Shown here: in pieces, positions 20,683-37,485 of the stretch | Position numbering within the stretch: the stretch's first letter is position 1 | Layout of the letters: the number at the start of each line of letters is the position of its first letter | Source of the DNA: Chitinophaga alhagiae | Lineage (GTDB): Bacteria > Bacteroidota > Bacteroidia > Chitinophagales > Chitinophagaceae | DNA length: 64,000 nucleotides | Direction of reading: 5' to 3' | NCBI RefSeq assembly: GCF_003568665.1 | Contig: NZ_QXMH01000001.1 | Coordinates: 1,364,001 to 1,428,000, forward strand | Made by a program: the position numbers and the translations under genes | Notes under the pieces: model-generated | Databases searched by the model: none | Told to the model about the DNA's origin: nothing | The model's input: the letters and a program-made list of their open reading frames with translations, nothing else

Positions 20683-21966
20683 ATGAATCAACAATACAAA
20701 ATTGCCATCATCGGGCTTGGTTATGTAGGATTACCTCTGGCGATAGAGTTCAGTAAAAAATATACTGTATTGGGGTTTGATATTAACAATGACAGGATCC
20801 GGGAACTTTCCAGTGGTAAAGACCGCACAAGAGAAGCAGGCCCGGAGGAGCTACAGGAGGCAATAGCGGGCAGCAGGGAACGGCCTCCGATCAAATTCTC
20901 CAGTAATGTGCAGGTACTTGTGGATTACAATGTTTTCATTGTAACCGTGCCTACCCCTATTGACCAGTTCAAAGCTCCCGACCTTCAGCCCCTATTAAAA
21001 GCTAGCGCCATGCTGGGAAAGCAGCTAAAAAAGGGAGATATTGTCATTTATGAGTCCACTGTATACCCCGGTTGTACGGAAGAAGATTGTGTGCCCGTGC
21101 TGGAAAAAATGTCCGGCCTTACTTTCAACAAAGATTTTTTCTGTGGTTATTCACCTGAAAGGATCAATCCGGGAGACAAAGTCAATACTCTCACCAAGAT
21201 CAAGAAGGTTACTTCCGGTTCTACGCCTGAAATAGCCGAGATAGTGGACAACCTTTACGCTAGCATCATTTCCGTCGGTACGCACAGGGCTCCAAGCTTG
21301 AAAGTAGCGGAGGCCTCCAAAGCGATCGAAAACGCACAGCGGGACGTGAATATAAGTTTTGTGAACGAACTAGCACTCATATTCGACAGGATGGGCATAG
21401 ACACTACCGATGTCATCGAAGCAGCAGGCACCAAATGGAACTTCCTCAAATATAAACCGGGTTTGGTAGGCGGCCATTGCATTGGCGTAGACCCATATTA
21501 CCTGGCCCATAAAGCGGAATCGCTGGGCTATCACCCACAAGTTATACTCTCCGGCAGAAGGGTGAACGACAACATGGGCATGTTTGTAGCTGGGAAGGTG
21601 ATCAAACTCATGATCCGCAAAGACCTGAAAGTCCATGGCACCAGGGCACTGATCCTAGGGATTACCTTCAAGGAAAACTGCCCTGATATCAGAAATTCCA
21701 AAGTGATAGATATTGTGCGGGAGATGGAAGAGTTTGGTGTAAAAGTAGACGTTTATGATCCTTATGCAGATCATAATGAAGTAAAGGAGGAATATGGCAT
21801 TTCGCTCATTAGTAAAATTGAGTTGCAATACGATGCCATTGTGCTGGCTGTGGCGCATAAGGAATTCTCGAAGCTTGATTTCAAACAGCTGAAAAACAGT
21901 CACAATACAGTTATTTTTGATACAAAAGCATTTATCAATAGAGACATAGTAGATGCAAGATTGTAA
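20683..21966 (+). CDS. UDP-N-acetylhexosamine 6-dehydrogenase (TviB/WbpO/WbpA type)
   Basis: A 427-residue nucleotide-sugar dehydrogenase oxidising C6 of a UDP-HexNAc to a uronic acid with two NAD. AIIGLGYVGLPLAIEFSKK is the NAD-binding motif, and LVGGHCIGVDPYYLAHKAES carries the catalytic cysteine. ALILGITFKENCPDIRNS is in the C-terminal UDP-binding domain. FDINNDRIREL and SLGYHPQVILSGRRVNDNMG favour the TviB-like HexNAc branch over UDP-glucose dehydrogenase. It probably supplies UDP-GlcNAcA for the diamino-uronic acid enzymes encoded at 34891-37485. Confidence 0.88.
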   Translation: MNQQYKIAIIGLGYVGLPLAIEFSKKYTVLGFDINNDRIRELSSGKDRTREAGPEELQEAIAGSRERPPIKFSSNVQVLVDYNVFIVTVPTPIDQFKAPDLQPLLKASAMLGKQLKKGDIVIYESTVYPGCTEEDCVPVLEKMSGLTFNKDFFCGYSPERINPGDKVNTLTKIKKVTSGSTPEIAEIVDNLYASIISVGTHRAPSLKVAEASKAIENAQRDVNISFVNELALIFDRMGIDTTDVIEAAGTKWNFLKYKPGLVGGHCIGVDPYYLAHKAESLGYHPQVILSGRRVNDNMGMFVAGKVIKLMIRKDLKVHGTRALILGITFKENCPDIRNSKVIDIVREMEEFGVKVDVYDPYADHNEVKEEYGISLISKIELQYDAIVLAVAHKEFSKLDFKQLKNSHNTVIFDTKAFINRDIVDARL

Positions 21967-21976
21967 TAGTATTTAT

Positions 21977-23107
21977 ATGATACCATTTAATGTTCCACTG
22001 ATTACCGGTAAAGAAAAACCTCTGCTGGATGAAGTATTATCGCTAAAAAAACTATGCGGAGACGGTTCATTCACAAAAAAATGCCACGCCTGGCTGGAGA
22101 ACTTCTACCAAGCACCCAAAGCCCTGTTAACAACCTCCTGTACGCATGCGCTAGAGATATCCGCGCTGCTTGCAGGTATCGAAGCCGGGGATGAAGTCAT
22201 TATGCCCTCGTTCACTTTTGTTTCTACCGCCAACGCCTTCGCTTTGAGGGGGGCGAAAATCGTATTTGTGGACGTTGATCCCGCTACCATGAACATGAAC
22301 GCTGAGAAGATTGAATCTGCCATTACGCCACGCACTAAAGCAATAGTGCCTGTTCACTACGCCGGCGTATCCTGCGATATGGACAGTATTATGGGGATTG
22401 CTGCTAAACACGGCCTACTAGTAATAGAGGACGCAGCGCAGGCCCTTCAATCGTTCTATAAGGGAAAGCCGGTAGGCAAATTCGGGCATCTCAGCTGCAT
22501 CAGCTTCCACGAAACTAAAAACGTTCACTGCGGTGAAGGCGGTGCTCTAGTGATCAATGAAGAGCTTTTTGCAGAAAGGGCCGAAATTATTCGTGAAAAA
22601 GGAACGAACCGTTCCAGGTTCCTCCGCGGACAGATAGATAAATATACCTGGGTAGACATTGGTTCCAGCTATCTTCCCAGCGAGCTGAATGCAGCGTTCC
22701 TGTACGCCCAGTTGGAGGAATCTGCCTCGATCACTCAAAAAAGACTAGCTATCTGGAACTCATACTATTCAAAGCTCAGCTTGCTTGAAAAAGAAGGACT
22801 GATCAATTTCGCCTCCATTCCCGCTGAAGTAAAGCATAATGCGCATATGTTCTATATCAAGTTAAAAAACATCGAACAGCGTCAGGCCCTGATCAGTTTC
22901 CTGAAGGAAAATGGCGTGCAGGGTACCTTCCACTATGTTCCCCTCCATTCTTCCCAAGCAGGCTTGCAGTTCGGACGGTTCCAGGGTGTTGACGAATATA
23001 CCACCACCGAAAGTGAAAGACTCCTAAGGCTGCCCATGCATCTGAACCTGGATGAAGCCGCAGTGGAAAAAGTCTGTGCTGAAGTAACCCGCTTCTTTAA
23101 GCCCTAA
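21977..23107 (+). CDS. wecE: dTDP-4-amino-4,6-dideoxygalactose transaminase
   Basis: A 376-residue PLP aminotransferase closely resembling what I recall of E. coli WecE/RffA, including the same length. Shared blocks include LCGDGSFTKKCHAWLE, GDEVIMPSFTFVSTANAF, SFHETKN with the PLP lysine, REKGTNRSRFLRGQIDKYTW and DIGSSYLPSELNAAF. It aminates dTDP-4-keto-6-deoxy-glucose to dTDP-Fuc4N. The ATG at 21977 is preferred over one at 21953 that overlaps the previous gene. RmlA and RmlB are not encoded in the window, so the precursor must come from elsewhere. Confidence 0.92.
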   Translation: MIPFNVPLITGKEKPLLDEVLSLKKLCGDGSFTKKCHAWLENFYQAPKALLTTSCTHALEISALLAGIEAGDEVIMPSFTFVSTANAFALRGAKIVFVDVDPATMNMNAEKIESAITPRTKAIVPVHYAGVSCDMDSIMGIAAKHGLLVIEDAAQALQSFYKGKPVGKFGHLSCISFHETKNVHCGEGGALVINEELFAERAEIIREKGTNRSRFLRGQIDKYTWVDIGSSYLPSELNAAFLYAQLEESASITQKRLAIWNSYYSKLSLLEKEGLINFASIPAEVKHNAHMFYIKLKNIEQRQALISFLKENGVQGTFHYVPLHSSQAGLQFGRFQGVDEYTTTESERLLRLPMHLNLDEAAVEKVCAEVTRFFKP

Positions 23108-23113
23108 AAAAAT

Positions 23114-23776
23114 ATGCTTGTGCTATTAAAAATACTTCGGAAAATCAAACACGCTGTTGCGCCACTTTTTACCAGTACTTCGTCTATTAAGTACTGGGAA
23201 AAAAGGGCCAAGCAATATGGCGCCAGATCAGTCATTCATTTAGGACATTCGGAAGAAGAACTGGCTGCCATTACTCAAAAACAGCAGAACATCCTTTTCC
23301 CGCTCCTTCAGAAAGAACTGAAAGGGGACGAAAAGCTACTACTGGATCTTGGCTGCGGACCAGGCCGTTTTACGCACGACCTGGCGGTCCTCTGCCATTG
23401 CCAAGCCGTAGGCATTGATCCAATCCAACATCTGCTGGATATTGCGCCGGCTTCTCCCCTGGTAAACTACAACCTCATGAAAGAAGGCATCATTCCACTT
23501 GATGACAACAGCGTGAACATTACCTGGATCTGTCTCGTGCTTGGCTCTGTAACCAACATGACCGTGCTGGAAAAGACAGTAAGCGAAGTGCTGAGGGTAA
23601 CAAAACCCGGAGGGCTTGTATTTCTAGTTGAAAAGACCTCCGAAGACCTCTCCAATTACAAAACCAAAACAGTTGCCTTTTACGAATCGTCCTTCAAAGT
23701 ATTTAATCTCAGGAAAATAGAAGAGTACCAAGATCTGGAAGACTGCAACAGCATTTTCATTGGCCGTAAACCTTAA
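23114..23776 (+). CDS. Class I SAM-dependent methyltransferase
   Basis: A 220-residue methyltransferase. LLDLGCGPGRFTHDLA is motif I for SAM binding, AVGIDPIQHLL motif II, and VLRVTKPGGLVFLVEKT the region after strand 5. An SIKYWEKRAKQYGARSVIHL block near the N-terminus resembles sugar-biosynthesis methyltransferases. It lies 6 bases after wecE, so modification of Fuc4N (N- or O-methyl) is a plausible but unproven role. Confidence 0.85.
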   Translation: MLVLLKILRKIKHAVAPLFTSTSSIKYWEKRAKQYGARSVIHLGHSEEELAAITQKQQNILFPLLQKELKGDEKLLLDLGCGPGRFTHDLAVLCHCQAVGIDPIQHLLDIAPASPLVNYNLMKEGIIPLDDNSVNITWICLVLGSVTNMTVLEKTVSEVLRVTKPGGLVFLVEKTSEDLSNYKTKTVAFYESSFKVFNLRKIEEYQDLEDCNSIFIGRKP

Positions 23777-23824
23777 AGAGAGCGAAGTGAAATTCTAGGT
23801 CCAATGTGATATGAAATATTCAAT

Positions 23825-25273
23825 ATGAGTTTAAAAAAGAACTTTCTGATTTATGGGCTTGGTAATATGTTGTATACGGCCGTTGTGTTGCTGCTTGTGC
23901 CCATCTATCTGGAAAAGCTCAACATTACCGACTATGGGCTGTATTCCATTTTCTATGTGACGGGCAACCTTCTGAGCGTACTGTTCTCGCTTTCCGTTTC
24001 CAATGGGATATTACGTTATTTTTCAGAATATAGCGGACTTAAGGAGCGTAAAGAGGCCGTATCTTCGCTACTGGTAATTTTTTTCCTCATCTTCCTTGTC
24101 ATTGCCGGCCTGACCTTCGCAGTGCGGGCGGCTGGTTTCAATGTACTTGAGGCATTCAAATTACCCGATAACCCTGCGTTTATTTCGCTGATGCTGACAT
24201 GGGCATTTAGCCGTATTCTCTTCAACATGATTCTTGGCGTATTGCGTGCAAACAATGAATCCATAAAGTATGTAATCCTGTCCATCTCTGACGTACTAAG
24301 CCTGTTCTTGATTAATTATTTTATCATTTACCATACCGCCTTTGCAGTAGAGCACATATTCTGGGGTTATACCATTTCTTCCCTGCTCAGTGTATTGACG
24401 GGCAGCATTTTTATTGCCCGCTATTTTGCTTTCCGACTGCACCAGCCCGCTGTAAAATACCTCGTGACCTACGGCATGCCGCTTTCCATTGCCAACACGA
24501 TATCTTACCTTATATCTTATGGCAACCGTTACTTTCTGTTGTATTTCACCAGCGAAAGGGAAGTAGCGATATTCGACGTTGCACAGAAAATAACCGGCAT
24601 CCTAGGAATTGTACTGGTAAACGGATTTATGATCGCATTCACCCCGTACTACCTTTCACTGCACCAATCCGCAACCGCCCTGGAATTCAACAGCAAGATC
24701 AATCTAGTGCTCGCCATTTTCACCAGGGTCTTCTTTTTTATGGGTGGCGGCGTCATTGTTGCCGATCACTATTTCTTAAGCCTATTGTCCAAGCCGGAGT
24801 ATCTGTCGTCCAGCTTTTACACCCCTTTCCTCATCATGGCCAATGCGTTCAACGTCCTGTTTATGCTACTGGCCATGACCACCAATATCCATAAGCGAAC
24901 TAGCATTGAAATGTTCATCACTTGCATTATGCTGATAATGGGCATGTCAGCAAACCTGTTGTTGATCCCTCTCCTGGGCATGATAGGCTGCGCTATTAGC
25001 CAGATAATTATGACATTTGCCGGTTTTATTGCAATCAACATTTATAATAAACGGAATTATCCGTTGAATTATCAATTGAAGCCGCTTGTGGTGTCTATTT
25101 TCATATTCATTGCTGTTACCGTTTCGGATTATTTTATTGTACGACTGGAAATTCCGGTGTCCTATAAATTGCTAGTATCCGCGCTGGCTCTTGCGCTTTC
25201 TGGTCTGCAGTTCCTGCCGAGTCTACCCGGGTTGAAAGCAACATTACAATCATTTACAAGGAATTCGTTATGA
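23825..25273 (+). CDS. Wzx-type polysaccharide flippase (MATE/MOP superfamily)
   Basis: A 482-residue membrane protein with about 12-14 hydrophobic segments. It opens KNFLIYGLGNMLYTAVVLLL, typical of oligosaccharide flippases, and has YGMPLSIANTISYLISYGNR in mid-protein, the second-half repeat of the fold. It would move lipid-linked repeat units across the inner membrane. It shares 4 bases with the next gene (ATGA), suggesting translational coupling. Confidence 0.87.
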   Translation: MSLKKNFLIYGLGNMLYTAVVLLLVPIYLEKLNITDYGLYSIFYVTGNLLSVLFSLSVSNGILRYFSEYSGLKERKEAVSSLLVIFFLIFLVIAGLTFAVRAAGFNVLEAFKLPDNPAFISLMLTWAFSRILFNMILGVLRANNESIKYVILSISDVLSLFLINYFIIYHTAFAVEHIFWGYTISSLLSVLTGSIFIARYFAFRLHQPAVKYLVTYGMPLSIANTISYLISYGNRYFLLYFTSEREVAIFDVAQKITGILGIVLVNGFMIAFTPYYLSLHQSATALEFNSKINLVLAIFTRVFFFMGGGVIVADHYFLSLLSKPEYLSSSFYTPFLIMANAFNVLFMLLAMTTNIHKRTSIEMFITCIMLIMGMSANLLLIPLLGMIGCAISQIIMTFAGFIAINIYNKRNYPLNYQLKPLVVSIFIFIAVTVSDYFIVRLEIPVSYKLLVSALALALSGLQFLPSLPGLKATLQSFTRNSL

Positions 25274-26415
25274 AGATAATACATTTAAGAGACCAATACC
25301 TCAGGGTTAGCTTTGTTTATTTCCTGTTGAAGGGGTTCAGAAAGTATGAACACTGGGTAGCATGCCGGGAGATCATTACCCGCGACCTTAAGTTGTATCC
25401 TTATGGTAAGATCATCAAGACATCGCGGTTGTTTTCTTTTACCTGGTTGTTAGACAAATTCCTAACCGTAAAGATGAAATTCAAAGCGCGGCCGGTCAAC
25501 GACTGGGTTGCCTACTATCAACTGTTGAAGGAAGAAGCCGATATACTAGTGCTTCACGCGCATATGGGACCGCAAGGATATTATGCGATACCGCTGGCCG
25601 AAAAACTGAAAAAGAATCTTTTCGTGACCTTCTATGGCTCAGACATGTCGGACGTGCCGAAACTGCCTGGGTGGGACGAACGGTATCATACACTGTTTCA
25701 CAAAGCTGCCCGTATTATTGTGGAGGGGGAATTTATGAAGGGCAAAATAGTGGAGCTGGGCTGCCCTGCACATAAAGTGGCCGTGGTGCGCATCGGCATT
25801 CCTCTGGGAGATATTCCTTTTTCATATCGCAAGAGGCCAGTGGGCGGGGAGCCGCTCCGAATACTAATGTGTGCCAACTTCTATCCCAAAAAAGGATTCC
25901 TCAGAGCGCTGGAGGCTTTCAGGATTATGCTTGGAAAAGGCTTCAGTTTTCAGGCCCAGATCGTGGGCAGCGGTCCACAAGAGCAACAGATGAAGGAATA
26001 CGTAAATGCAAACGGCCTGGCTTCCCGTGTCACTTTCCTCGGCTCCAGAACACTTCCGCAGATCTACCAGCTATCGCAAAACATGCACCTGTTTTTCCAT
26101 CCTAGCGAAACCGCTCCCGATGGCGGCTCTGAAGGCGGGGCACCCACCATCATTCTTGAAATGCAAGCATTAGGACTCCCCGTGATAGCTACTACCCATG
26201 CAGACATTCCGCACATCATCCCGGAAGCGAACCATTTTCTGGCCGCTGAATATGATGCTAAAGGGCTGGTTCAGCAGTTTGAACGGCTGCTGGCAATGGA
26301 TGACTGGAATGCATTGTCAGACAGAGGCCTTAAATTTGTGACCGAATATCACAGCAACATTGCCTGTGCCGCAAGATTGGAAGAACTGTATGCACAATAC
26401 AATAAAACCAGTTAG
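25270..26415 (+). CDS. Glycosyltransferase family 4
   Basis: A 381-residue GT-B enzyme. ILVLHAHMGPQGYYAIPLA and LFVTFYGSDMSDVP lie in the N-domain. In the C-domain are LRILMCANFYPKKGFLRALE (acceptor-binding/nucleotide loop), VGSGPQEQQMKEYV, and the donor-binding EX7E-like region SETAPDGGSEGGAPTIILEM. It resembles colanic-acid WcaL-type transferases. It should add one sugar of the repeat unit. Donor unknown. Confidence 0.87.
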   Translation: MKIIHLRDQYLRVSFVYFLLKGFRKYEHWVACREIITRDLKLYPYGKIIKTSRLFSFTWLLDKFLTVKMKFKARPVNDWVAYYQLLKEEADILVLHAHMGPQGYYAIPLAEKLKKNLFVTFYGSDMSDVPKLPGWDERYHTLFHKAARIIVEGEFMKGKIVELGCPAHKVAVVRIGIPLGDIPFSYRKRPVGGEPLRILMCANFYPKKGFLRALEAFRIMLGKGFSFQAQIVGSGPQEQQMKEYVNANGLASRVTFLGSRTLPQIYQLSQNMHLFFHPSETAPDGGSEGGAPTIILEMQALGLPVIATTHADIPHIIPEANHFLAAEYDAKGLVQQFERLLAMDDWNALSDRGLKFVTEYHSNIACAARLEELYAQYNKTS

Positions 26416-26428
26416 TAGTTGGTATAAA

Positions 26429-27631
26429 ATGAATGACTTTTTTTTAAAATATCACAACGCCGGTCTGAAAAACGTCATGTTCGCCATGCTATTTTTCATC
26501 AGCCTCCTGGGATATATTCCTATGTTGCCATACTGGCTGTATAATATTGGCACATTTATCACCATTCCCATATTCATCTTCATAACATCGAACTACTCGA
26601 ACCGCTTTGTGACGAAGAACGAGATTGCTTTCCTGGGACTTTTTGTGCTCAGCCTCCTGCTGTCTTACCTTACCTCTCCCTTCGGGTTCACCATCGCCGG
26701 TTTTCTCCGAGCACTGGTGCCGATCATCTTCTATTACCTGGTAAGGGTACTCAATGTAAAAAAAACCGACTTTTATTATTCTGTTCTTTATTACCTGCTC
26801 ATTCTTTCGTTCCTTGTGGCTGCGTACCAGTTCTTTTTCCAGCCCGCGTATATCATCAACGACGACGGCGCCTGGGAAGAAGTAGAGGGTGTACTTACAC
26901 TGATGAAACGACCAGTTTCCTACTTGGGAAACTCGAATGTATTTGGCGTATTCACAGTATTCTGCTTCCTGATATTGTTTACGGAAGGCAACCAGCGGCT
27001 CACCAAAAATCAGAAGGTAGCGCTGTTCATCGTTACCATTCTCAACCTCACCCTGTTTTCCAAGTCAAGAACCTCGCTGGCAGCATTTATTGTAACACTG
27101 CTGATATACCTCTTTCACAAACGCAAGTTCATTCCTTTGTTAGTCGTTTTCCTATTCTTTTTGGCAGGGATTGCTTATGTGCTTTCCAATTATGAGCAAA
27201 TTGAGGCTATAGATAATATCTTCCGGCTGTCCAGTCTCTCCAGTGAGGATCGCAACTCGTACAGCATCAGGAGCGAGATTGCGAAATTTGCCATCCCACT
27301 TATTGGAGAGCGACCGTTCTTTGGGGTGGGCGTAGGCAATGAACAGCAACTGATGATGAGTACCGGCGCACCGCACAAAGGCATGGAATCCGCTACCCTT
27401 TTGCTTCTGATAGAGCGGGGCATATTGGGATATTTGATATATCTTTACATCTTATTTTCAAAATTTTTACTTGTTAAAAATAATATCACGAGGATCCTAA
27501 TCGGCCTGGTAATGATTTCCGTAGACTTTACAGAAACAGTTTGCGTAATACCTCAATTAAGCACTTTTCTGGCCATTTATCTTGGGGTAACCTGGAATAC
27601 TGTGAACCAAACAGATAATAAATTGCTATAA
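26429..27631 (+). CDS. Wzy-type O-antigen/polysaccharide polymerase
   Basis: A 400-residue protein with about ten membrane segments. The long periplasmic loop contains SIRSEIAKFAIPLIGERPFF, GVGVGNEQQL and later PHKGMESATLLLLIERGILG, the Wzy_C pattern of O-antigen polymerases and ligases. Start at 26429 was chosen because the earlier ATG at 26360 lies within the previous gene. It would polymerise flipped repeat units in the periplasm. Confidence 0.82.
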   Translation: MNDFFLKYHNAGLKNVMFAMLFFISLLGYIPMLPYWLYNIGTFITIPIFIFITSNYSNRFVTKNEIAFLGLFVLSLLLSYLTSPFGFTIAGFLRALVPIIFYYLVRVLNVKKTDFYYSVLYYLLILSFLVAAYQFFFQPAYIINDDGAWEEVEGVLTLMKRPVSYLGNSNVFGVFTVFCFLILFTEGNQRLTKNQKVALFIVTILNLTLFSKSRTSLAAFIVTLLIYLFHKRKFIPLLVVFLFFLAGIAYVLSNYEQIEAIDNIFRLSSLSSEDRNSYSIRSEIAKFAIPLIGERPFFGVGVGNEQQLMMSTGAPHKGMESATLLLLIERGILGYLIYLYILFSKFLLVKNNITRILIGLVMISVDFTETVCVIPQLSTFLAIYLGVTWNTVNQTDNKLL

Positions 27632-27644
27632 ACTAACGTATGGT

Positions 27645-29093
27645 ATGCTGTTTAATTCTATTGCTTTTCTCATATTTTTCCCGATCGTAACCATATTGTA
27701 TTTTTTGCTGCCTCACAAATTCCGCTGGTTGCTGCTCCTTCTGGCCAGCTGTTATTTCTACATGTACTTTGTGCCTGTATACATCTTGATCCTCTTTTTC
27801 ACGATCATTATAGACTATATTGCCGGCATCTGTATCGAAAACGCCAAAGAACCTAAACAGCGGAAGGTTTACCTCGTTATCAGCCTCATCGCGAACATTG
27901 GTGTACTCTGTTTCTTCAAGTACTTCAATTTCCTTAACGATAATCTCAGCCTATTGCTAGGTGGCTTGGGCCGGCAGAACCCCATTCCCTATCTACAAAT
28001 ACTTCTGCCCATCGGGCTTTCATTCCACACCTTTCAGGCCATGAGTTATACGATTGAAATATATAGGGGTAATTTCAAGGCTGAAAGGCATTTTGGCATT
28101 TATGCACTATATGTAATGTTTTACCCTCAGTTGGTGGCAGGCCCCATCGAAAGGCCACAGAACGTATTGCCGCAGTTCCATAAGGTGCAGCGATTCAATT
28201 ATGCCAACCTTGTATCCGGCCTCAAACAAATGGCTTGGGGTATGTTCAAGAAAGTGGTTATAGCCGACAGGTTGTCAATTCTAGTAAACACTGTAAACGA
28301 CGACGTATATGCCCAAAACGGCTTCGGACTGCTCTTGGCTGCCTATTTCTTCGCATTCCAGATCTATTGCGATTTTTCCGGATATTCAGACATCGCACTG
28401 GGGGCAGCCAGGGTAATGGGAATCAACCTCATGAAAAATTTCGATAGGCCATATGTTTCCCAGAGTATATCCGAATTCTGGAAACGCTGGCATATTTCTC
28501 TTTCAACTTGGTTTCGAGATTACCTTTACATCCCAATGGGAGGAAACCGGACGAGCTCAAAATGGAAGCATTATTGGAACCTATTTGTTACATTCCTGGT
28601 AAGCGGCATTTGGCATGGTGCAAACTGGACTTATGTGATCTGGGGCGCGTTACATGGATTCTACCTCGTGTTCGCCCTCGTAACACGGCCCTTCCGCAAC
28701 AGGCTGGTGCAAATGGCCGGCCTGAAAAAGGGCAGCTGGTTTTACCGATTTGTGAATATGATGGTCACTTTCCACCTGGTGCTGATAGGCTGGGTGTTCT
28801 TCCGCGCTAATACCGTAAATGAAGCATTTTATTCTCTGAGAGAAATCATTAACTTTTCCGGTTATCGATATTCTTTGGAAGGTCTGGGACTCAATTGGAT
28901 GGAAATAATAGTGGCTATCAGCTCAATTTTTGGGTTGCTGATACTTGAATACATTCATTCAAAATATAATTTAAGTAGCGTGATTGGCACTAAACCATTG
29001 CCAATCAAATGGTTAGTTTATTGTTTATTTATCATTATTATTGTACTTTTTGGAGAGTACAAAGGTCAACAATTCATATACTTTCAATTTTGA
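27645..29093 (+). CDS. MBOAT-family O-acyltransferase (AlgI-like)
   Basis: A 482-residue membrane protein. MLFNSIAFLIFFPIVTILYF is the characteristic AlgI/PatA start. YFAFQIYCDFSGYSDIALGA, ISEFWKRWHISLSTWFRDYL and SGIWHGANWTYVIWGALHG are the conserved MBOAT blocks; the last includes the catalytic histidine. Such proteins transfer acyl groups across the membrane to an extracytoplasmic partner. The next gene overlaps by one base and encodes an SGNH-like protein, the usual partner. Confidence 0.93.
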   Translation: MLFNSIAFLIFFPIVTILYFLLPHKFRWLLLLLASCYFYMYFVPVYILILFFTIIIDYIAGICIENAKEPKQRKVYLVISLIANIGVLCFFKYFNFLNDNLSLLLGGLGRQNPIPYLQILLPIGLSFHTFQAMSYTIEIYRGNFKAERHFGIYALYVMFYPQLVAGPIERPQNVLPQFHKVQRFNYANLVSGLKQMAWGMFKKVVIADRLSILVNTVNDDVYAQNGFGLLLAAYFFAFQIYCDFSGYSDIALGAARVMGINLMKNFDRPYVSQSISEFWKRWHISLSTWFRDYLYIPMGGNRTSSKWKHYWNLFVTFLVSGIWHGANWTYVIWGALHGFYLVFALVTRPFRNRLVQMAGLKKGSWFYRFVNMMVTFHLVLIGWVFFRANTVNEAFYSLREIINFSGYRYSLEGLGLNWMEIIVAISSIFGLLILEYIHSKYNLSSVIGTKPLPIKWLVYCLFIIIIVLFGEYKGQQFIYFQF

Positions 29094-30093: not shown

Positions 30094-31242
30094 ATGAAAA
30101 AGCATAAAATTGGTATAATTGGATTCGGAGGAGCGGGAATAGCCCTATTTCAACATTTTGAAAGATTTTCGGATTGCAGTGTTACCAGTGTATTGGATAT
30201 AAAAGAAACCGCCTTTGAAAGGGCTCGATTTTATTTGCCTAGCATCTTTACCACTTACAGCCTTACGGAATTCCTTAACAGCGGGATAGATATCGTTGTA
30301 GTAACTTCCCCTGACAATACCCACGCGGATTATATTGCCGATAGTCTTAGCGCCGGCAAGCATGTACTTTGCGAAAAGCCGCTGACGGATTCCATCGAAG
30401 GCATTCGCAAGATCCTGGATGCTATTGCTCGCCATCCCGGGCAGGTGGTAGGTGTACAGCACCAGATGAGATGCCTGCCAGTGCATACGGAAATTCACAA
30501 TATTGTACGCCAGGGCCAGTTGGGAAAGATCGGCTACATAGAAGGGTATTACGTGCACAACCTTACCAAAAGAGCTTTCGAGTATGACGAATGGCGGTTG
30601 AGAGACAATGCCACGCCGCTTATTTACTCTGGCATTCACTTCGTTGACCTGCTGCGTTGGATCATGAAGGATGAAGTAGTGGAAGTATGTGGCATGGCCA
30701 ACAACATCTGCTTCCCGGAATACCCGGAAAGTGATCTGAATGTGATACTGCTCAAATTCCGGTCCGGTGTGATAGGTAAAGTGGTGACTGCCTTCGGTGC
30801 CGGAAGGCCGCAGGACCATACAGTACAGATTTATGGCGATCAGCGGAGCATTTTCAACAATATGCTGTTTGAAAAAGATGGCGGTTTCAAAATCTTCGCA
30901 CGGCCGAAGAAAAATACGCTGCCCGGCCGCAAACAGGCCTTTATTAAAGATCTTGCCATCACCGGCTTTTCCAATATGTTCGAAAAACTCATGAAGATAT
31001 ATCCGTACAATGCACAGTACAATATAGGTTTTTATCCGATCAGGCTATATGAACATTACCTGGCAGTAAACCAATCTGCCAAAAATTTCCTGGACGCAGT
31101 AAACGGCGAAGCGAAATTACAATGTACCGCGTTGGATGCCGCAAGATCTGTTGCCGTAGCCCTCGCTGGAGTAGAAGCCTACCGCACAGGGGCCACCGTA
31201 CAAGTAAAAAAATACTGGCCTAAAGAATTAGGTCAACTCTAA
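30094..31242 (+). CDS. Gfo/Idh/MocA-family oxidoreductase
   Basis: A 382-residue NAD(P)-dependent dehydrogenase. IGIIGFGGAGIALFQHF is the Rossmann motif, VTSPDNTHADYIADSLSAGK and HVLCEKPLTDS the family signature (catalytic lysine in EKP). YSGIHFVDLLRWIM contains the conserved active-site histidine. It immediately precedes the HisH-HisF-WbpG amidination set, but a second oxidoreductase at 34891 is a better match to the WlbA/WbpB step. Substrate therefore unknown. Confidence 0.87.
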   Translation: MKKHKIGIIGFGGAGIALFQHFERFSDCSVTSVLDIKETAFERARFYLPSIFTTYSLTEFLNSGIDIVVVTSPDNTHADYIADSLSAGKHVLCEKPLTDSIEGIRKILDAIARHPGQVVGVQHQMRCLPVHTEIHNIVRQGQLGKIGYIEGYYVHNLTKRAFEYDEWRLRDNATPLIYSGIHFVDLLRWIMKDEVVEVCGMANNICFPEYPESDLNVILLKFRSGVIGKVVTAFGAGRPQDHTVQIYGDQRSIFNNMLFEKDGGFKIFARPKKNTLPGRKQAFIKDLAITGFSNMFEKLMKIYPYNAQYNIGFYPIRLYEHYLAVNQSAKNFLDAVNGEAKLQCTALDAARSVAVALAGVEAYRTGATVQVKKYWPKELGQL

Positions 31243-31252: not shown

Positions 31253-31870
31253 ATGATCACAATTATAGATTACGAAGCAGGCAACATCGGGTCCATCCTG
31301 AACATGATCAAAAGAATCGGGGGGAAAGCCTGCATTTCAGGAAACGCTGACGAGATCAGGATCGCTGAAAAGCTGATCCTCCCCGGCGTTGGCCATTTCG
31401 ACTATGGAATGTTGCAACTGCGCAAATCCGGCTTGTCAGAAGCCCTACAAGAGGCTGTCATCCGTGACAAAAAGCCAGTGCTTGGCATTTGTCTGGGTAT
31501 GCAGCTGATGACACAGCGGAGTGAGGAAGGTGTGCAGCCCGGCCTTGGATGGTTCAACGCTACCGTGAAAAAATTCCAGTTCTCTGACAACGAGGTAAAA
31601 CTGAAAGTGCCTCATATGGGATGGAACCACGTTTCACTGGTAAATAAAAACAGCCGGTTGTTCAAAGACATGCCCGAAGATCCCCGCTTTTATTTCGTGC
31701 ATTCCTTTTATGCTTCCGCTTCTGACCCAGCAGAAGTACTCACCACCACACAACACGGGCTGGAGTTTGCATCGAGCCTGGAAAAAGGTAATATTTACGG
31801 TGTACAGTTTCATCCGGAGAAAAGCCATAAATATGGCATAAGATTACTTCAAAATTTCCTTGACATTTAA
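31253..31870 (+). CDS. hisH: HisH-like glutamine amidotransferase for sugar amidination
   Basis: A 205-residue class I glutaminase. ITIIDYEAGNIGSILNMIKR is the HisH start, LGICLGMQLM holds the nucleophilic cysteine, and GVQFHPEKSHKYG the histidine and glutamate of the triad. It produces ammonia from glutamine. Position between sugar-modifying genes, with HisF and WbpG homologues following, points to the lipopolysaccharide-type HisH2 role, not histidine biosynthesis. Confidence 0.9.
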   Translation: MITIIDYEAGNIGSILNMIKRIGGKACISGNADEIRIAEKLILPGVGHFDYGMLQLRKSGLSEALQEAVIRDKKPVLGICLGMQLMTQRSEEGVQPGLGWFNATVKKFQFSDNEVKLKVPHMGWNHVSLVNKNSRLFKDMPEDPRFYFVHSFYASASDPAEVLTTTQHGLEFASSLEKGNIYGVQFHPEKSHKYGIRLLQNFLDI

Positions 31871-31871
31871 T

Positions 31872-32630
31872 ATGCTGAGAGTTCGAGTCATACCTGTTCT
31901 GCTATTGAAAAACAAAGGCCTGGTGAAAACGGTTTCTTTCAAGAATCCAACCTACATCGGAGACCCTATAAACGCAGTGCGCATCTTCAACGAAAAAGAA
32001 GTAGACGAGTTGATGCTGCTAGACATTACCGCCAGCGTAGAGAACCGAGAACCCAACTACGCCTGGATAAAAGATATATCAAGTGAAAGTTTTATGCCCA
32101 TCGGCTACGGTGGTGGCATACAGACGCTCGACCAGATCAAAAAGCTCTTTAACCTCGGCGTAGAAAAAGTGGTTCTTAACAGCGCCAGCACCAACCTTGA
32201 ACTGATCCGTTCCGCAGCGGCCATCTTTGGCAGTCAAAGCATCGTAGTTTCTATAGATGTAAAAAAAAGTTTCTGGGGAAAATATGAAGGTTTCACGCAT
32301 AGTGGCAGCAAAAAACTACCCATTCCCCCATTGGAACATGCCATAAACTGTGTGAACGCCGGCGCCGGTGAAATATATCTGCAGTCCATAGACAAGGAAG
32401 GGCACATGAAAGGTTACGATCTCGACATAACACGCCAGTTCAGCAACGCTTTGACAGTGCCTGTAGTAGCTTCCGGTGGTGCGGCGGATCTTGCTTCCAT
32501 GAAAGAAGTGATCTCCTTCGCGGGTGCTTCAGCCGTATCTGCAGGCAGTATTTTTGTATATAAAGGTAAACACAAAGCCGTATTGATAAATTATCCTTCT
32601 CAGGAGGTCCTCAAAGAATACTTACCATGA
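31872..32630 (+). CDS. HisF-like cyclase subunit of the sugar amidination complex (HisF2 type)
   Basis: A 252-residue (beta/alpha)8-barrel protein. VIPVLLLKNKGLVKTVSF replaces the usual IPCLDVKDG of histidine-pathway HisF: the catalytic aspartate (Asp11 in Thermotoga HisF) is a leucine here, as I recall for HisF2 proteins in polysaccharide loci. IYIGDPINAVRIFNEKE-like residues and GYGGGIQTLDQIK are also typical. It probably serves as the ammonia channel or scaffold between HisH and WbpG. Starts one base after hisH and overlaps wbpG by 4 bases. Confidence 0.87.
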   Translation: MLRVRVIPVLLLKNKGLVKTVSFKNPTYIGDPINAVRIFNEKEVDELMLLDITASVENREPNYAWIKDISSESFMPIGYGGGIQTLDQIKKLFNLGVEKVVLNSASTNLELIRSAAAIFGSQSIVVSIDVKKSFWGKYEGFTHSGSKKLPIPPLEHAINCVNAGAGEIYLQSIDKEGHMKGYDLDITRQFSNALTVPVVASGGAADLASMKEVISFAGASAVSAGSIFVYKGKHKAVLINYPSQEVLKEYLP

Positions 32631-33760
32631 CCGATAAAAGACCATATCAGATCTGTAGCCGTTGTATAATGGACACTAGCGACCCGGATATACAATTTAA
32701 CCAGGAAGGCGTTTGTAATCACTGCACGCGGTACACCGATTTGATTGATACTCGTGTGTTTCGCGGCAATCTAGCCACGCAAAAACTAAAAAAGCTGATA
32801 AGCCGGATCAAAAGAGACAAACATAACGCTGAGTATGACTGCATTATAGGTGTTAGTGGTGGCGTAGACAGCACCTACGTAGCCTATCTCACCAAAAAAC
32901 TAGGCCTTAATCCTCTCGCTGTTCATTTCGATAATGGATGGAACTCGGAGTTAGCGGTGAGTAACATCGAAAAAACGCTAGACAAACTCAATATCGATCT
33001 GTACACCTACGTAATCGACTGGGAAGAATTTAAGAACCTGCAGCTTTCCTTCCTGTATGCCTCCACACCTGATGGCGAAGTGCCTACGGATCATGCCATC
33101 AACGCACTACTTTTTAAAGAAGCCGCCAAAAGAGGCATTAAATACATCATCAACGGCATGAACTTCGCTACCGAGTCCCTCGCAGTAAAAAAATGGGCTT
33201 ATGGTCATTCCGACTGGAAATACATCAACGCGGTACACAAAAGATTTGGTATCGTCAAGTTGAAACATTACCCTCACTTTAGTTTCCTCGACCTTTTTTA
33301 CTATATCTTCATTCGCCGTATAAAAGTGATCAGCATTCTCAACTATATTCCTTATGACAAAAACGAGGTGATGAAAATATTGCAGAATGAGTTGGGTTGG
33401 CTATATTACGGCGGCAAACACTACGAATCCGTTTATACCCGCTTTTACCAAGCTTACATCCTTCCCAGGAAATTCAATATAGACAAACGAAGGGGCCATT
33501 TATCCGACCTCATTCATGCCGGCCAGCTGACCCGGGACGAAGCACTTGAGCTTATCAAAGACCCGGTGGCCGATATGAATATGCTGGAGCAAGACAAGGA
33601 TTTCGTGATAAAAAAGCTGGAACTTGATCCCACTAAATTCGAAAGTATCATGCGGGCACCGCCTACCACTTACGAATCTTACAACAACAGCGAAAAGGGC
33701 GTAGCCCGCCTGAAAAAATTTCTTAACTGGATGCGCAAAAAAGGTATATACTCAAAATAA
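32627..33760 (+). CDS. wbpG: N-acetyl sugar amidotransferase (WbpG/PseA family)
   Basis: A 377-residue ATP pyrophosphatase-type amidotransferase. It starts with a zinc-finger-like pair, CSRCIMDTSDPDIQF and GVCNHC, then IGVSGGVDSTYVAYLTKK (PP-loop) and PLAVHFDNGWNSELA. These are signatures of WbpG/PseA enzymes that convert an acetamido group of a nucleotide sugar to an acetamidino group using ammonia from HisH. It overlaps the HisF gene by 4 bases. The exact sugar acceptor is inferred from neighbours (2,3-diamino-uronic acid). Confidence 0.9.
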   Translation: MTDKRPYQICSRCIMDTSDPDIQFNQEGVCNHCTRYTDLIDTRVFRGNLATQKLKKLISRIKRDKHNAEYDCIIGVSGGVDSTYVAYLTKKLGLNPLAVHFDNGWNSELAVSNIEKTLDKLNIDLYTYVIDWEEFKNLQLSFLYASTPDGEVPTDHAINALLFKEAAKRGIKYIINGMNFATESLAVKKWAYGHSDWKYINAVHKRFGIVKLKHYPHFSFLDLFYYIFIRRIKVISILNYIPYDKNEVMKILQNELGWLYYGGKHYESVYTRFYQAYILPRKFNIDKRRGHLSDLIHAGQLTRDEALELIKDPVADMNMLEQDKDFVIKKLELDPTKFESIMRAPPTTYESYNNSEKGVARLKKFLNWMRKKGIYSK

Positions 33761-33761
33761 T

Positions 33762-34880
33762 ATGACAATACTTCATATTTGCAGTGACTACGCCAAACAA
33801 AGCATTTATAATAACCTAGTGACCTCGTTAGGCCGTCAGGGGCATTACCAGATTGTATATGTGCCTGTACGCACTGCTTATGAAGTAGGTCTGTATCAGA
33901 ATAGCACGCTTGAAAATACAGTATACCATTATGCACATATCCTGAAAAAATATCATCGTCTTCTATTTCATCTCAAAATCCGAACGGTGCTGAAAGATCT
34001 CGCATCTCGCACCGATCCTAGTGCTGTTGACATTGTACATGCCCACTTCCTTTTCAGCGACGGAGCAGTGGCCCTTCGACTCAAACAGCAATACGGCAAA
34101 CCGTATATCGTGGCAGTGAGAAATACAGATATCAATATATTTTTCAGGTACATGAAACACCTTAAAGGCCTTGCCTATAAAATATTGCGGGAAGCCAAAC
34201 AGATTATTTTCCTTTCCCCGTCATACCAGGAAAAGCTGCTGAACGACATTCTCCCTTCTAGTGTAGCCCGCGCCATCAAGAATAAGTGCATAGTAGTGCC
34301 TAATGGCGCAGATGAGTTCTGGTTTGATCACATGCATGAACGTCGCGAATTAACCACAGACACACTACGCCTGCTGTACGTAGGCGATTTCAGCGTCAAT
34401 AAGAATATACCCAGTATTATCTCTGCTGCAAAGCGGCTGGCTACCGTGCGCCCCGTGCAACTCATTATACTGGGCGGAGGGGGTAACGGCGACAAAACGG
34501 TAAAGACAGCGGCTATAGCTGAAAAAGCCCTTGTTACCCTCCTCCCCCGCACCAGCGACAAAAACGAATTACTGGAACAATACCGAAAAGCAGATATTTT
34601 TGTAATGCCCTCGCTGTTCGAAACTTTTGGCATTGTATATATCGAAGCCATGAGCCAGGGACTGCCAGTAATATACACCGAAAGCCAGGGAATAGACGGC
34701 TATTTCCCGGAAGGACAGATAGGCTATCATGTGAACCCACATAACGTACAAGATATTGCGGACAAAATAAATGCGATAGCAGGAAATTATGCCCAGATGG
34801 CCGCTGGTGCAACCCAGGCGGCGGAAAAGTTCCGCTGGTGCAAAATTGCGGACACATACACCCGGATCTATAAAAGTTAA
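33762..34880 (+). CDS. Glycosyltransferase family 4
   Basis: A 372-residue GT-B transferase. VDIVHAHFLFSDGAVAL and PYIVAVRNTDINIFFRY are in the N-domain. LRLLYVGDFSVNKNIPSIIS and ADIFVMPSLFETFGIVYIEA with the following MSQGLPVIYTES form the C-terminal GT4 donor site (E...FG...E motif). It starts one base after wbpG ends. It may transfer the amidinated sugar, judging only from position. Confidence 0.88.
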   Translation: MTILHICSDYAKQSIYNNLVTSLGRQGHYQIVYVPVRTAYEVGLYQNSTLENTVYHYAHILKKYHRLLFHLKIRTVLKDLASRTDPSAVDIVHAHFLFSDGAVALRLKQQYGKPYIVAVRNTDINIFFRYMKHLKGLAYKILREAKQIIFLSPSYQEKLLNDILPSSVARAIKNKCIVVPNGADEFWFDHMHERRELTTDTLRLLYVGDFSVNKNIPSIISAAKRLATVRPVQLIILGGGGNGDKTVKTAAIAEKALVTLLPRTSDKNELLEQYRKADIFVMPSLFETFGIVYIEAMSQGLPVIYTESQGIDGYFPEGQIGYHVNPHNVQDIADKINAIAGNYAQMAAGATQAAEKFRWCKIADTYTRIYKS

Positions 34881-34890: not shown

Positions 34891-35904
34891 ATGACAAAAA
34901 ACATCAGATTTGCTATTGTCGGATGTGGCAGGATCGCCCAAAGACACGCAGAACATATTAAAAACAACGGCCTGCTCACGGCTGTTGTCGATATTGACAA
35001 GACGAAAGCGGAAGCGCTTGGCAGTAGATACGGTGCCAAGGTGTATGCCGATATTGATACCCTTTTGGCAGAAGAAAAGGACATAGATGTAATATCTATC
35101 TGTAGTCCCAACGGTCTACACGCGGAACATAGTATCAAATCCCTTAATGCCGGCTTTCATGTATTGTGCGAGAAACCCATGGCCATTTCTGTACACGACT
35201 GCGGCGAAATGATAAAAGCGGCAGAGAAAAACAATAAACGCCTATTCGCCATCAAACAAAACCGTTTCAACCCACCCGTCACGGCCGTAAAAGATGCTAT
35301 GGAAAAAGGTGCGCTCGGGAAAATTTACAGCGTTCAACTTAGTTGCTTCTGGAACAGGAACGAAGACTACTATCGTAATTCCTGGAAAGGCACGCAAAAA
35401 CTCGACGGAGGTACCTTATACACGCAATTCAGCCATTTCATTGACCTCCTTTACTGGATTGTGGGTGACATCAAAAAAGTACATGCCATTACTCGCAATT
35501 TCGCGCATAAAGACATCATCGAATTTGAAGATACCGGTGTGGTGGTAATGGAGTTCTACAGCGGGGCTATTGGCACTATCAATTACACTGTGAATAGCTA
35601 CAAAAAAAACATGGAGGGCTCACTGACCATATTTGCGGAAAAAGGCACTGTAAAAATCGGTGGACAGTACTTGAACGAACTGGAATACCAGCAAATTGAA
35701 GGCTTCGAGTTTAAAGACCTGCCGGAAGGTAACAAGGCCAATAACTACGGAGCGTACCAAGGTTCTATGTCCAATCACGATAAGGTGTATGAAAATCTCG
35801 TTCAGGTTCTAAACAACGGGGCCTCCATTTCAACCAATGCCTTTGAGGGACTTAAGACTGTTGAGATCATTAATAAAATATACACCTCAGCGGAAAATAA
35901 TTAA
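34891..35904 (+). CDS. Gfo/Idh/MocA oxidoreductase, WlbA/WbpB-like (UDP-HexNAcA 3-dehydrogenase)
   Basis: A 337-residue NAD-dependent dehydrogenase. IRFAIVGCGRIAQRHAEHI is the Rossmann motif; HVLCEKPMAISVHDCGEM carries the family lysine; GGTLYTQFSHFIDLLYWIVG contains the active-site histidine. In WlbA/WbpB systems this oxidises C3 of UDP-GlcNAcA, followed by aminotransfer and acetylation; those two genes follow directly (35909 and 36364). Start at 34891, as the longer frame overlaps the previous gene. Confidence 0.85.
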   Translation: MTKNIRFAIVGCGRIAQRHAEHIKNNGLLTAVVDIDKTKAEALGSRYGAKVYADIDTLLAEEKDIDVISICSPNGLHAEHSIKSLNAGFHVLCEKPMAISVHDCGEMIKAAEKNNKRLFAIKQNRFNPPVTAVKDAMEKGALGKIYSVQLSCFWNRNEDYYRNSWKGTQKLDGGTLYTQFSHFIDLLYWIVGDIKKVHAITRNFAHKDIIEFEDTGVVVMEFYSGAIGTINYTVNSYKKNMEGSLTIFAEKGTVKIGGQYLNELEYQQIEGFEFKDLPEGNKANNYGAYQGSMSNHDKVYENLVQVLNNGASISTNAFEGLKTVEIINKIYTSAENN

Positions 35905-35908: not shown

Positions 35909-36367
35909 ATGATGCAGGAATACTTTTCAGGGATAAAGGACGTCAAGATGGGAGAACATGTTAAAATTGTACATCCCGTGAACATGTACGGCTGTGAGGT
36001 CGGTGACGGAACGTTCGTTGGCCCCTTCGTAGAAATTCAGAAAAATGTTATCATCGGTAAAGATTGTAAAATCCAGTCGCACAGTTTCGTATGTGAACTG
36101 GTAACAATCGGTGACAATTGTTTTATCGGCCACGGTGTCATGTTCATCAACGACCTTTTTTCCGGTGGAGGCCCGGCTATGGGAGACATCACCAAATGGC
36201 GAAAGACCAGCATTGGCAGCAAGGTATCCATCGGCTCCAATGCCACCATCCTCCCCGTCAACATCTGCTCCAACACCGTTATAGGCGCGGGTGCCGTGGT
36301 AACGAAAGATATTCATACGCCAGGCGTATATGCCGGTAACCCTGCTAAACTAATCAAAACACTATGA
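35909..36367 (+). CDS. Left-handed beta-helix N-acetyltransferase, WbpD/WlbB-like
   Basis: A 152-residue hexapeptide-repeat acyltransferase. Repeats such as VGDGTFVGPFVEIQKNVIIG and IGDNCFIGHGVMFIND run through the protein, and IGAGAVVTKDIHTPGVYAGN is the typical C-terminal end. In the WbpB-WbpE-WbpD pathway it acetylates the 3-amino group of the uronic acid. ATG at 35909 chosen; another ATG follows directly. It overlaps the next gene by 4 bases. Confidence 0.85.
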   Translation: MMQEYFSGIKDVKMGEHVKIVHPVNMYGCEVGDGTFVGPFVEIQKNVIIGKDCKIQSHSFVCELVTIGDNCFIGHGVMFINDLFSGGGPAMGDITKWRKTSIGSKVSIGSNATILPVNICSNTVIGAGAVVTKDIHTPGVYAGNPAKLIKTL

Positions 36368-37485
36368 ACACAATCAGAAAAGTACCATTCGTAGATCTCA
36401 AATCTCAATACATTTCTATAAAAGACGAAATAGATAAGGCCATCTACAATGTGATCAGCGAAACTGCTTTTATCGGCGGCAAATACGTTAAGAACTTTGA
36501 AGAGGCCTTCAAAAGCCTGTATGGTGTAAAACATTGCATCGGCGTGGGTAATGGTACTGACTCTTTGTACATTATCATGAAAATGCTGGGCATTAGAGAA
36601 GGCGATGAAGTGATCACCAGCGCATATAGCTGGATCTCCAGCTCCGAAACCATTTCGCAAACTGGTGCTAAACCCGTATTTGTCGACATTGATGAGTTTT
36701 ATACGATCAATGCCAACATGATTGAAGCAAAGATCACTCCCCGGACAAAAGCCATCATTCCCGTACATATTCACGGCCAGGTGTGCGACATGTCCAAACT
36801 GAAAGCCATTTGTGATAAACATAAGCTTTTCCTCATCGAAGACTGCGCGCAGTCGCATTTTTCTCAATACGGCGCCCAACGCGTAGGTACTATAGGCATT
36901 GCCGCTTCCTTCAGTTTCTACCCAGGCAAAAACCTCGGCGCATATGGCGATGCCGGTTGCATTCTTACCAACGACGACAATATCGCCTCCGCCTTCAGGA
37001 TGTATGCTAACCACGGTGCGCTCGTAAAACATGCGCATAAGATAGAAGGCATCAACAGTCGTTTGGATGCGCTACAGGCTTCCATCCTTACTGCTAAATT
37101 ACCTTACATTCTCGGCTGGACAGCCAGCCGGCAGAAAAACGCCGGGATCTATACCAGCCTGCTCCAGAGTGTGGAAGATATTGAGCTTCCCGCTGTTCGA
37201 GTCAACACCTCGCATACTTTTCACCTCTACGTCATCAAAACATCCCGTAGGGATGAACTGAAAGCCTACCTGGGTGAAAAAGGCATCGAAACCGCCGTGC
37301 ATTACCCCACAGCGCTACCCAACCTGGAATGTTATCGGCATCTGGACCTGAAACAGGATGACTATCCTGTAGCCACCGGCAACCAGCAGATGCTGCTTTC
37401 TTTGCCTATGTACCCTGAATTGACACAGGACGATATCGAATACGTAACCGGTCATATCATGGAATTTTTCAAAATAAAAAAATGA
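36364..37485 (+). CDS. DegT/DnrJ/EryC1/StrS aminotransferase, WbpE/WlbC-like
   Basis: A 373-residue PLP enzyme. FVDLKSQYISIKDEIDKAIY is the start typical of WbpE-like transaminases, GVGNGTDSLYIIMKMLGI binds cofactor phosphate, and FYPGKNLGAYGDAG has the PLP-binding lysine. It should place the 3-amino group on UDP-3-keto-GlcNAcA. Tight overlap with both the acetyltransferase upstream and the glycosyltransferase downstream supports one operon. Confidence 0.89.
   Translation: MNTIRKVPFVDLKSQYISIKDEIDKAIYNVISETAFIGGKYVKNFEEAFKSLYGVKHCIGVGNGTDSLYIIMKMLGIREGDEVITSAYSWISSSETISQTGAKPVFVDIDEFYTINANMIEAKITPRTKAIIPVHIHGQVCDMSKLKAICDKHKLFLIEDCAQSHFSQYGAQRVGTIGIAASFSFYPGKNLGAYGDAGCILTNDDNIASAFRMYANHGALVKHAHKIEGINSRLDALQASILTAKLPYILGWTASRQKNAGIYTSLLQSVEDIELPAVRVNTSHTFHLYVIKTSRRDELKAYLGEKGIETAVHYPTALPNLECYRHLDLKQDDYPVATGNQQMLLSLPMYPELTQDDIEYVTGHIMEFFKIKK

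Follow-up and report, generated by a model that had tools for sequence, protein, structure and literature searches.

The pathway to 2-acetamido-3-acetamidino-2,3-dideoxy-D-mannuronic acid (ManNAc3NAmA) in Pseudomonas aeruginosa is described, in the excerpt of PMC10622841 available, as the work of five enzymes, and here we set beside it a polysaccharide operon of Chitinophaga alhagiae (Bacteroidota), which lies in a 64,000-nucleotide stretch of contig NZ_QXMH01000001.1 (positions 1,364,001 to 1,428,000 of the forward strand; this whole stretch is called the window, and positions are counted from its first letter). Like WbpABEDI of P. aeruginosa O5, the operon encodes a chain of 6-dehydrogenase, 3-dehydrogenase, aminotransferase and acetyltransferase candidates together with the same kind of amidination set, going by the accessible parts of PMC10622841 and PMC10607449; unlike O5, the genome holds no WbpI-type epimerase, and the oxidoreductase is closer to WlbA than to the PDB entry named WbpB. 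A diamino-uronic acid module for the gluco form is likewise known from Acinetobacter baumannii, where gna/dgaABC are assigned to 2,3-diacetamido-2,3-dideoxy-D-glucuronic acid (D-GlcNAc3NAcA) and dmaA is listed apart, for the manno sugar, but, in contrast to the operon here, the excerpted text names no amidination set with gna/dgaABC (PMC9676051). In the archaellin glycan of Methanococcus maripaludis, the 3-acetamidino group found on a diamino-uronic acid is attributed to a WbpG homologue (MMP1081), and GlcNAc3NAcA is also present, a combination that recalls the present one; however, according to the same partial source, it is the manno residue that is amidinated there and not the gluco residue (PMC2952790). 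A uronic acid of gluco configuration that bears an acetimidoylamino group at C3, like the sugar proposed here, is reported from Rhizobium leguminosarum, although that acid, by its name in the source excerpt, has no 2-acetamido group. Cluster B of Sphingomonas sp. LM7, from a different phylum, is similar to our operon in that the available text places a nucleotide sugar dehydrogenase, an aminotransferase, an acetyltransferase, an MviM-type dehydrogenase, WbuX, HisF2 and HisH together in a single polysaccharide cluster (PMC11340318), and Streptomyces teichuronic acids are stated, in the part of PMC13274773 at hand, to contain GlcNAc3NAcA.

A predicted route to an amidinated uronic acid

We propose, with a probability of roughly one half or slightly better, that this operon makes uridine diphosphate (UDP)-activated GlcNAc3NAcA in the gluco form, most likely amidinated at C3. 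The seven genes on which the initial annotation had built its pathway were all recovered in place on the forward strand (Table 1), and from them we infer the following activities and order of steps. The TviB-type enzyme would oxidise UDP-N-acetylglucosamine (UDP-GlcNAc) to its uronic acid, UDP-GlcNAcA, which WlbA would oxidise at C3; the WbpE-like enzyme would then aminate C3, and the WbpD-like enzyme would acetylate the product to UDP-GlcNAc3NAcA, the sugar probably being kept in the gluco form as no WbpI-type epimerase is encoded. HisH2 would release ammonia from glutamine and HisF2 pass it on, and WbpG, with ATP, would turn an N-acetyl group into an acetamidino group, most likely at C3 of GlcNAc3NAcA. 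The predicted product, 2-acetamido-3-acetamidino-2,3-dideoxy-D-glucuronic acid (GlcNAc3NAmA), is the gluco epimer of ManNAc3NAmA and would carry one negative and one positive charge on the same residue.

For the presence of an amidine on the uronic acid, taken by itself, the odds seem somewhat better than even. That Bacteroidota lineages without any PF02350 UDP-N-acetylhexosamine (UDP-HexNAc) 2-epimerase build a polymer containing GlcNAc3NAmA is a more tentative proposal, which we hold at somewhat short of an even chance. No report of GlcNAc3NAmA was found in the literature searched, in which other names for the structure could escape notice. The steps are known elsewhere, from P. aeruginosa O5, A. 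baumannii and M. maripaludis, and what we put forward is a well-grounded prediction in which known chemistry is newly combined. If it is true, a zwitterionic residue, with acid and amidine on one sugar, would be part of a Bacteroidota polysaccharide, and the lineage, including a relative whose genome is a single contig (G033), would offer a natural case for asking whether the WbpG set takes a gluco substrate. As such, the prediction bears on the substrate range of the little-studied WbpG amidotransferase family.

Candidate enzymes of the diamino-uronic acid

The first enzyme falls just below the cut-off of the NCBIfam TviB model (558 bits against 592) and above that of the NDP-sugDHase model (400 bits), and reaches only 199 and 226 bits with two UDP-ManNAc dehydrogenase models. 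It has GGHC at residue 263 and is the sole TviB-type match at E 1e-30 in its own genome, where two other proteins exceed 200 bits to PF03721. We therefore assign it as a predicted UDP-GlcNAc 6-dehydrogenase.

The best PDB sequence matches of the oxidoreductase are 3q2i (256 bits) and 3q2k (229 bits), both titled WlbA with NADH and UDP-GlcNAcA, and the WbpB entry 3oa2 scores far lower (75 bits). The initial annotation had suggested a comparison with WlbA and WbpB by structure prediction, and the part of it that was run agrees: a model built from 13 sequences (mean predicted local distance difference test score 85.7) lies closest to WlbA of Bordetella pertussis (Z 41.9; 1.7 A over 326 residues) and Chromobacterium violaceum (Z 40.0; 1.8 A over 322 residues), ahead of the next structural match at Z 35.7. 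The WbpB entries 3oa2 and 3o9z are outside the best 50 structural matches listed, which is no evidence of a different fold. These two WlbA proteins are thus the best matches by both sequence and structure and were solved with UDP-GlcNAcA, but they are 36-39% identical to ours and are titled in the literature as manno-sugar enzymes. Sequence and model together point to UDP-GlcNAcA 3-dehydrogenation as the predicted activity. A GnnA-type role, in the making of UDP-2,3-diamino-2,3-dideoxyglucose (UDP-GlcN3N) for lipid A, was rejected, as GnnA reaches Z 33.8 with 16% identity. The genome of the closest relative, L036, has a TviB orthologue (73%) with a second WlbA (47%) beside it; some 19 kb separate this WlbA from the first one (G395:C13:62253-65107).

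The aminotransferase, with Lys189 within SFYPGK, scores 262 bits with WbpE and 279 with QdtB, which we take to be C3 enzymes, versus 181 with perosamine synthetase and at most 155 with entries named ArnB, presumably C4 enzymes. A C3 aminotransferase is therefore the likely assignment, and the PDB scores alone leave its sugar unfixed. The initial annotation had held that grouping of the oxidoreductase and the aminotransferase with families for other sugars would count against its pathway; the oxidoreductase sits clearly with WlbA and the aminotransferase among 3-amino-sugar enzymes, but QdtB, which we assume to act on another 3-amino sugar, outscores WbpE. Deoxythymidine diphosphate (dTDP)-3-amino sugars were rejected as products, the dehydrogenase being of the WlbA type and no ketoisomerase being found among the operon proteins scanned (the genome was not searched for one). 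For the short hexapeptide protein, the weakest assignment of the set, the WbpD-like role is supported by position, since most of the mapped Bacteroidota loci have a gene of its type between their homologues of wlbA and wbpE.

Which sugar may carry the amidine

Four candidate carriers are left, namely the diamino-uronic acid, a bacillosamine-type sugar (38644-42359), 4-amino-4,6-dideoxygalactose (Fuc4N) by way of the WecE-type enzyme (21953), and an ordinary HexNAc. The amidination genes hisH2-hisF2-wbpG are separated from wlbA-wbpD-wbpE by one glycosyltransferase gene only, against 4.9 kb to the bacillosamine-type genes and 8.1 kb to the WecE-type gene. For comparison with other genomes, 79 WbpG loci were taken as the best of 568 candidates for a profile that resembles the window's WbpG. 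Linkage was counted over 126 loci, some genomes giving more than one; L180-L187, the eight of the 15 WlbA-fetched loci L175-L189 that lack WbpG, were excluded. WlbA was called with a hidden Markov model (HMM) of our own, which left a score gap between 272 and 98, and WbpG proteins scoring above 380 with an HMM of our own formed group B, to which loci with both types were counted. Where at least 4 kb were available on both sides, 27 of 81 loci in group A have WlbA no more than 8 kb from WbpG, versus none of 23 in group B (Fisher p 0.0007, the loci not being independent). The 28 linked loci among all 102 of group A have both genes on the same strand without exception; in 15 of them the distance is within 2.5 kb, with WlbA downstream of WbpG every time, and in 8 it is within 100 bp. 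A draw of 395 genomes gave a WbpG match in 60, of which 44 (our own counted) were examined over long stretches; a WlbA match was found in 16 of these 60 versus 49 of 395 overall, and five of the six other genomes whose WlbA is at least 66% identical to ours have WbpG within 8 kb of it. This gene order of WlbA and WbpG favours the diamino-uronic acid as the carrier of the amidine.

On a quick WbpG tree (LG+G4, 153 rows, with a long-branch warning; L085, on the same contig as L083, was excluded), linkage to WlbA is clustered beyond chance, requiring 25 changes versus a shuffled mean of 31.0, a value as low being reached in 1 of 500 shuffles. The five rows nearest to the window's WbpG comprise three linked (L036, L176, L179) and two unlinked ones (L038, L040). 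Reading the amidinated sugar off this tree was rejected, because the linkage is too scattered.

Several observations weigh against an amidinated gluco uronic acid. The WbpG proteins linked to WlbA are far from forming one clade on the tree. WbpG proteins 61% and 59% identical to ours, from a Verrucomicrobia genome (L038) and from Roseicyclus marinus (L040), occur in genomes, of unstated completeness, without WlbA at E 1e-50, and the former locus holds a LegC-type aminotransferase; 43 genomes have a WbpG locus free of WlbA, with WlbA elsewhere in 18 and none in 25. Conversely, a WbpG match is missing from 33 of 49 genomes with WlbA. One of these is G120, the sixth of the genomes with a WlbA at least 66% identical to ours (66% in its case); its complete lack of a WbpG match lowers the odds of our preferred reading and raises those of an amidine on another sugar. 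Where WbpG and WlbA are linked, 24 of 28 genomes encode at least one PF02350 protein, and at 10 of the 28 loci it is encoded no more than 8 kb from WbpG. The same operon also contains the genes of two additional amino sugars, which the initial annotation did not name. As to the enzymes, six other distinct PDB sequences outscore WbpE as matches of the aminotransferase, with 7b0d first (334 bits) and QdtB among them, and the hexapeptide protein matches PDB entries weakly, at no more than 59 bits (49 bits for 3mqg, which we take to be WlbB). Finally, in Plesiomonas shigelloides O51 the amidine belongs to a different sugar from the gluco diamino-uronic acid next to it, according to the partial text of PMC3210612.

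The strongest alternative is accordingly that the uronic acid is plain GlcNAc3NAcA and that WbpG amidinates the bacillosamine-type sugar, N-acetylated Fuc4N or an ordinary HexNAc. The LegC/PglE-NeuD-dehydratase set and the WecE-type enzyme of the operon would supply such substrates, the relatives of WbpG in genomes without WlbA, one beside a LegC-type aminotransferase, are in keeping with it, and gluco diamino-uronic acid and amidine are on separate residues in Vibrio vulnificus as well as in P. shigelloides O51 (PMC3210612, as excerpted). Against this stand the single glycosyltransferase gene between the amidination set and wlbA-wbpD-wbpE, compared with the longer distances to the other sugar genes, the eight loci with WlbA within 100 bp of WbpG, and the lack of PF02350 and NeuB, and hence of the usual FucNAc, ManNAc and nonulosonic acid routes, in the genome. 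We consider this alternative a serious one, yet rather doubtful. The pathway of the initial annotation thus holds in so far as the operon offers candidates for the enzymes of UDP-GlcNAc3NAcA synthesis and of amidination, whereas its placing of the amidine on the uronic acid stands less firmly, as several sugars are amidinated by homologues of WbpG, close relatives of our WbpG occur without WlbA, and the operon has at least two other amino-sugar gene sets.

Epimerase genes and the probable gluco form

The proposed gluco form depends on the lack of an inverting enzyme. The initial annotation had seen no epimerase in the window, and the genome-wide search it called for gave no match to PF02350 (the WbpI/WecB/FnlC type) in the whole genome (6.1 Mb, 15 contigs, 99.99% complete), even when E values up to 0.1 were allowed; control searches were positive in 11 of 14 named genomes. 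PF02350 is also without a match in G033, a member of the same family with one contig of 5.1 Mb and 100% completeness, whose WlbA is 75% identical to ours with WbpG 5 kb from it, and in the L036 and L091 genomes, whose completeness is unstated; of the 28 genomes in which no more than 8 kb separate WbpG and WlbA, 4 lack PF02350, our own included. In contrast, L043 and G026 have a PF02350 epimerase beside wlbA, so that the diamino-uronic acid block is used both with and without an epimerase. An epimerase HMM of our own was trained on 30 sequences, of which one (L134) was a neighbouring WlbA-like open reading frame (ORF); matches were counted above 140 bits, and that ORF scores 110.

In the absence of a WbpI-type epimerase, the most economical reading is that the sugar has the gluco form. 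The PF02350-type 2-epimerase of the P. aeruginosa-type ManNAc3NAmA pathway was not found, and the gluco suggestion of the initial annotation gains from the genome-wide result, although it is less unusual than was implied, given the assignment of A. baumannii gna/dgaABC to D-GlcNAc3NAcA in the available part of PMC9676051. An inversion to the manno form, giving ManNAc3NAmA as in P. aeruginosa, would require an epimerase outside PF02350. The amidinated diamino-uronic acids found named in the literature, as far as the sources were accessible, are manno or galacto sugars, and the epimerase genes beside wlbA in the two relatives would fit such an inversion, but the empty searches in our genome and in G033, L036 and L091, and the fact that the sole short-chain dehydrogenase/reductase (SDR) recognised in the operon is of the dehydratase family Polysacc_synt_2, make it improbable.

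NeuB (PF03102) gave no match in the genome either, with controls positive in 9 of 14. Since PF02350 and NeuB are both missing, nonulosonic acids and the PF02350-dependent routes to N-acetylfucosamine (FucNAc) and N-acetylmannosamine (ManNAc) look unavailable. A nonulosonic acid was accordingly rejected as the target of amidination for want of NeuB, and FucNAm made via FnlC for want of PF02350.

The predicted amidination enzymes

The three amidination proteins, counterparts of WbpG and presumably of its partners HisH2 and HisF2 in P. aeruginosa O5, belong to the expected families and keep their motifs. HisH2 reaches 230 bits with TIGR01855 (cut-off 105) and retains C80, H187 and E189, which we take to be the glutaminase triad. 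HisF2 passes the AglZ/HisF2 model NF038364 (351 bits, cut-off 310) and stays below the cut-off of the WbuZ model (278 bits against 300). It has Leu at the position of the first Asp, assumed by us to be catalytic, of the genome's own HisF, as do three other aligned HisF2 proteins. WbpG scores 292 bits with TIGR03573 (cut-off 203), has an intact tetracysteine motif of two CxxC pairs (C10 and C13, C30 and C33) and a PP-loop, SGGVDS, at residues 77-82; its only PDB match is 8wex (35 bits, residues 20-101). Tetracysteine and SGGxDS PP-loop motifs are described for this amidotransferase family in the accessible text of PMC10607449. Elsewhere in the genome, two neighbouring and stronger PF00977 proteins are read as the HisF and HisA of histidine synthesis, leaving the operon's HisF2 copy free for sugar work. 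By their motifs, the HisH triad and the AglZ-type HisF2, the three proteins look like an intact amidination set. That they are instead redundant or decayed histidine-type copies and amidinate no sugar, as the paralogy of HisH and HisF with histidine enzymes might suggest, is very improbable in view of the PF00977 pair elsewhere in the genome, the scores of HisF2 and WbpG above curated cut-offs with intact motifs, and the shared Asp-to-Leu change. Roseicyclus marinus (L040) has an amidination set in a genome without a match to WlbA (E 1e-50) or PF02350 (E 1e-10).

The operon and its setting

The operon is a run of forward-strand genes of about 17.0-42.4 kb, from the Wza-like gene at 17029 to the phosphosugar transferase gene ending at 42359 (Table 1), and its product is best explained as a Wzx/Wzy-type surface polysaccharide. 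The GC content is 44.8% over 16.8-50 kb versus 54.1% and 52.6% in the flanks, some 8-9 points lower, as expected of acquired DNA. The same gene block occurs in the named relatives L036, L043, L045, L067, L091 and L100, which, like the Por_Secre_tail protein next to the operon, indicate a Bacteroidota origin.

Table 1. Genes of the polysaccharide operon, with positions in the window and the matches used for naming.
Product	Position	Strand	Match
Wza-like SLBB polysaccharide export protein, operon start	17029..19527	+	Pfam Poly_export, SLBB
Chain-length-regulator-like protein (by eye only)	19557..20642	+	without Pfam or NCBIfam match
TviB/WbpA-type UDP-GlcNAc 6-dehydrogenase (predicted), step 1	20683..21966	+	NCBIfam TviB, NDP-sugDHase
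WecE-type dTDP-4-amino-4,6-dideoxygalactose transaminase	21953..23107	+	NCBIfam 602 bits, cut-off 375
Methyltransferase	23114..23776	+	Pfam Methyltransf_11
Wzx-like flippase	23825..25273	+	Pfam Polysacc_synt
GT4-type glycosyltransferase	25270..26415	+	Pfam Glycos_transf_1
Wzy-like polymerase	26360..27631	+	Pfam Wzy_C
MBOAT O-acyltransferase	27645..29093	+	Pfam MBOAT
Probable secreted partner of MBOAT protein (by eye)	29009..30064	+	no family match
Second Gfo/Idh/MocA oxidoreductase	30094..31242	+	Pfam; best PDB match 71 bits
HisH2 glutaminase	31253..31870	+	TIGR01855
HisF2 (AglZ family); probable ATG at 31872	31860..32630	+	NF038364
WbpG/WbuX N-acetyl sugar amidotransferase	32627..33760	+	TIGR03573
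GT4-type glycosyltransferase, between wbpG and wlbA	33762..34880	+	Pfam
WlbA-type UDP-GlcNAcA 3-dehydrogenase (predicted), step 2	34891..35904	+	PDB 3q2i, 3q2k; model comparison
WbpD/WlbB-like N-acetyltransferase (predicted), step 4	35909..36367	+	Pfam Hexapep
WbpE-like C3 aminotransferase (predicted), step 3	36364..37485	+	PDB matches
GT4-type glycosyltransferase	37482..38687	+	Pfam
NeuD/PglD-type acetyltransferase, bacillosamine-type pathway	38644..39330	+	TIGR03570 204 bits, cut-off 161
LegC/PglE-type aminotransferase	39330..40463	+	TIGR04181 453 bits, cut-off 420; perosamine synthetase 255 bits
Nucleotide-sugar 4,6-dehydratase-like SDR	40485..41696	+	Pfam Polysacc_synt_2 142 bits
Initiating phosphosugar transferase	41700..42359	+	Pfam Bac_transf 172 bits

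The first sugar of the polymer, made by the 38644-42359 block, is probably of the bacillosamine type because NeuB is absent; the SDR of this block reaches only 64 bits with the PseB and FnlA models, far below cut-off. The MBOAT protein and its probable secreted partner, for which neither Pfam nor NCBIfam gave a match, suggest that the polymer is O-acylated. The second Gfo/Idh/MocA oxidoreductase, directly upstream of hisH2, may add a step on one of the sugars, and among the loci compared its best match exceeds 100 bits only in L036 (70%), where the glycosyltransferase between wbpG and wlbA also has a counterpart at the same place (45%).

A scan of 16500-34500 counted 51 promoter-like sites versus 33.6 in shuffles and 21 terminator-like sites versus 17.4, and these counts were not used. 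ORFs 42233 and 42380 had no match in Pfam or NCBIfam; the protein of the latter (42380-43954), following the phosphosugar transferase, has by eye the look of a Wzi-type outer-membrane protein. On the reverse strand, a sigma-70 region 2/4 protein (16096-16596) borders the low-GC stretch on the left, and a protein of 1265 residues with a Por_Secre_tail sorting domain (44032-47829) adjoins the operon.

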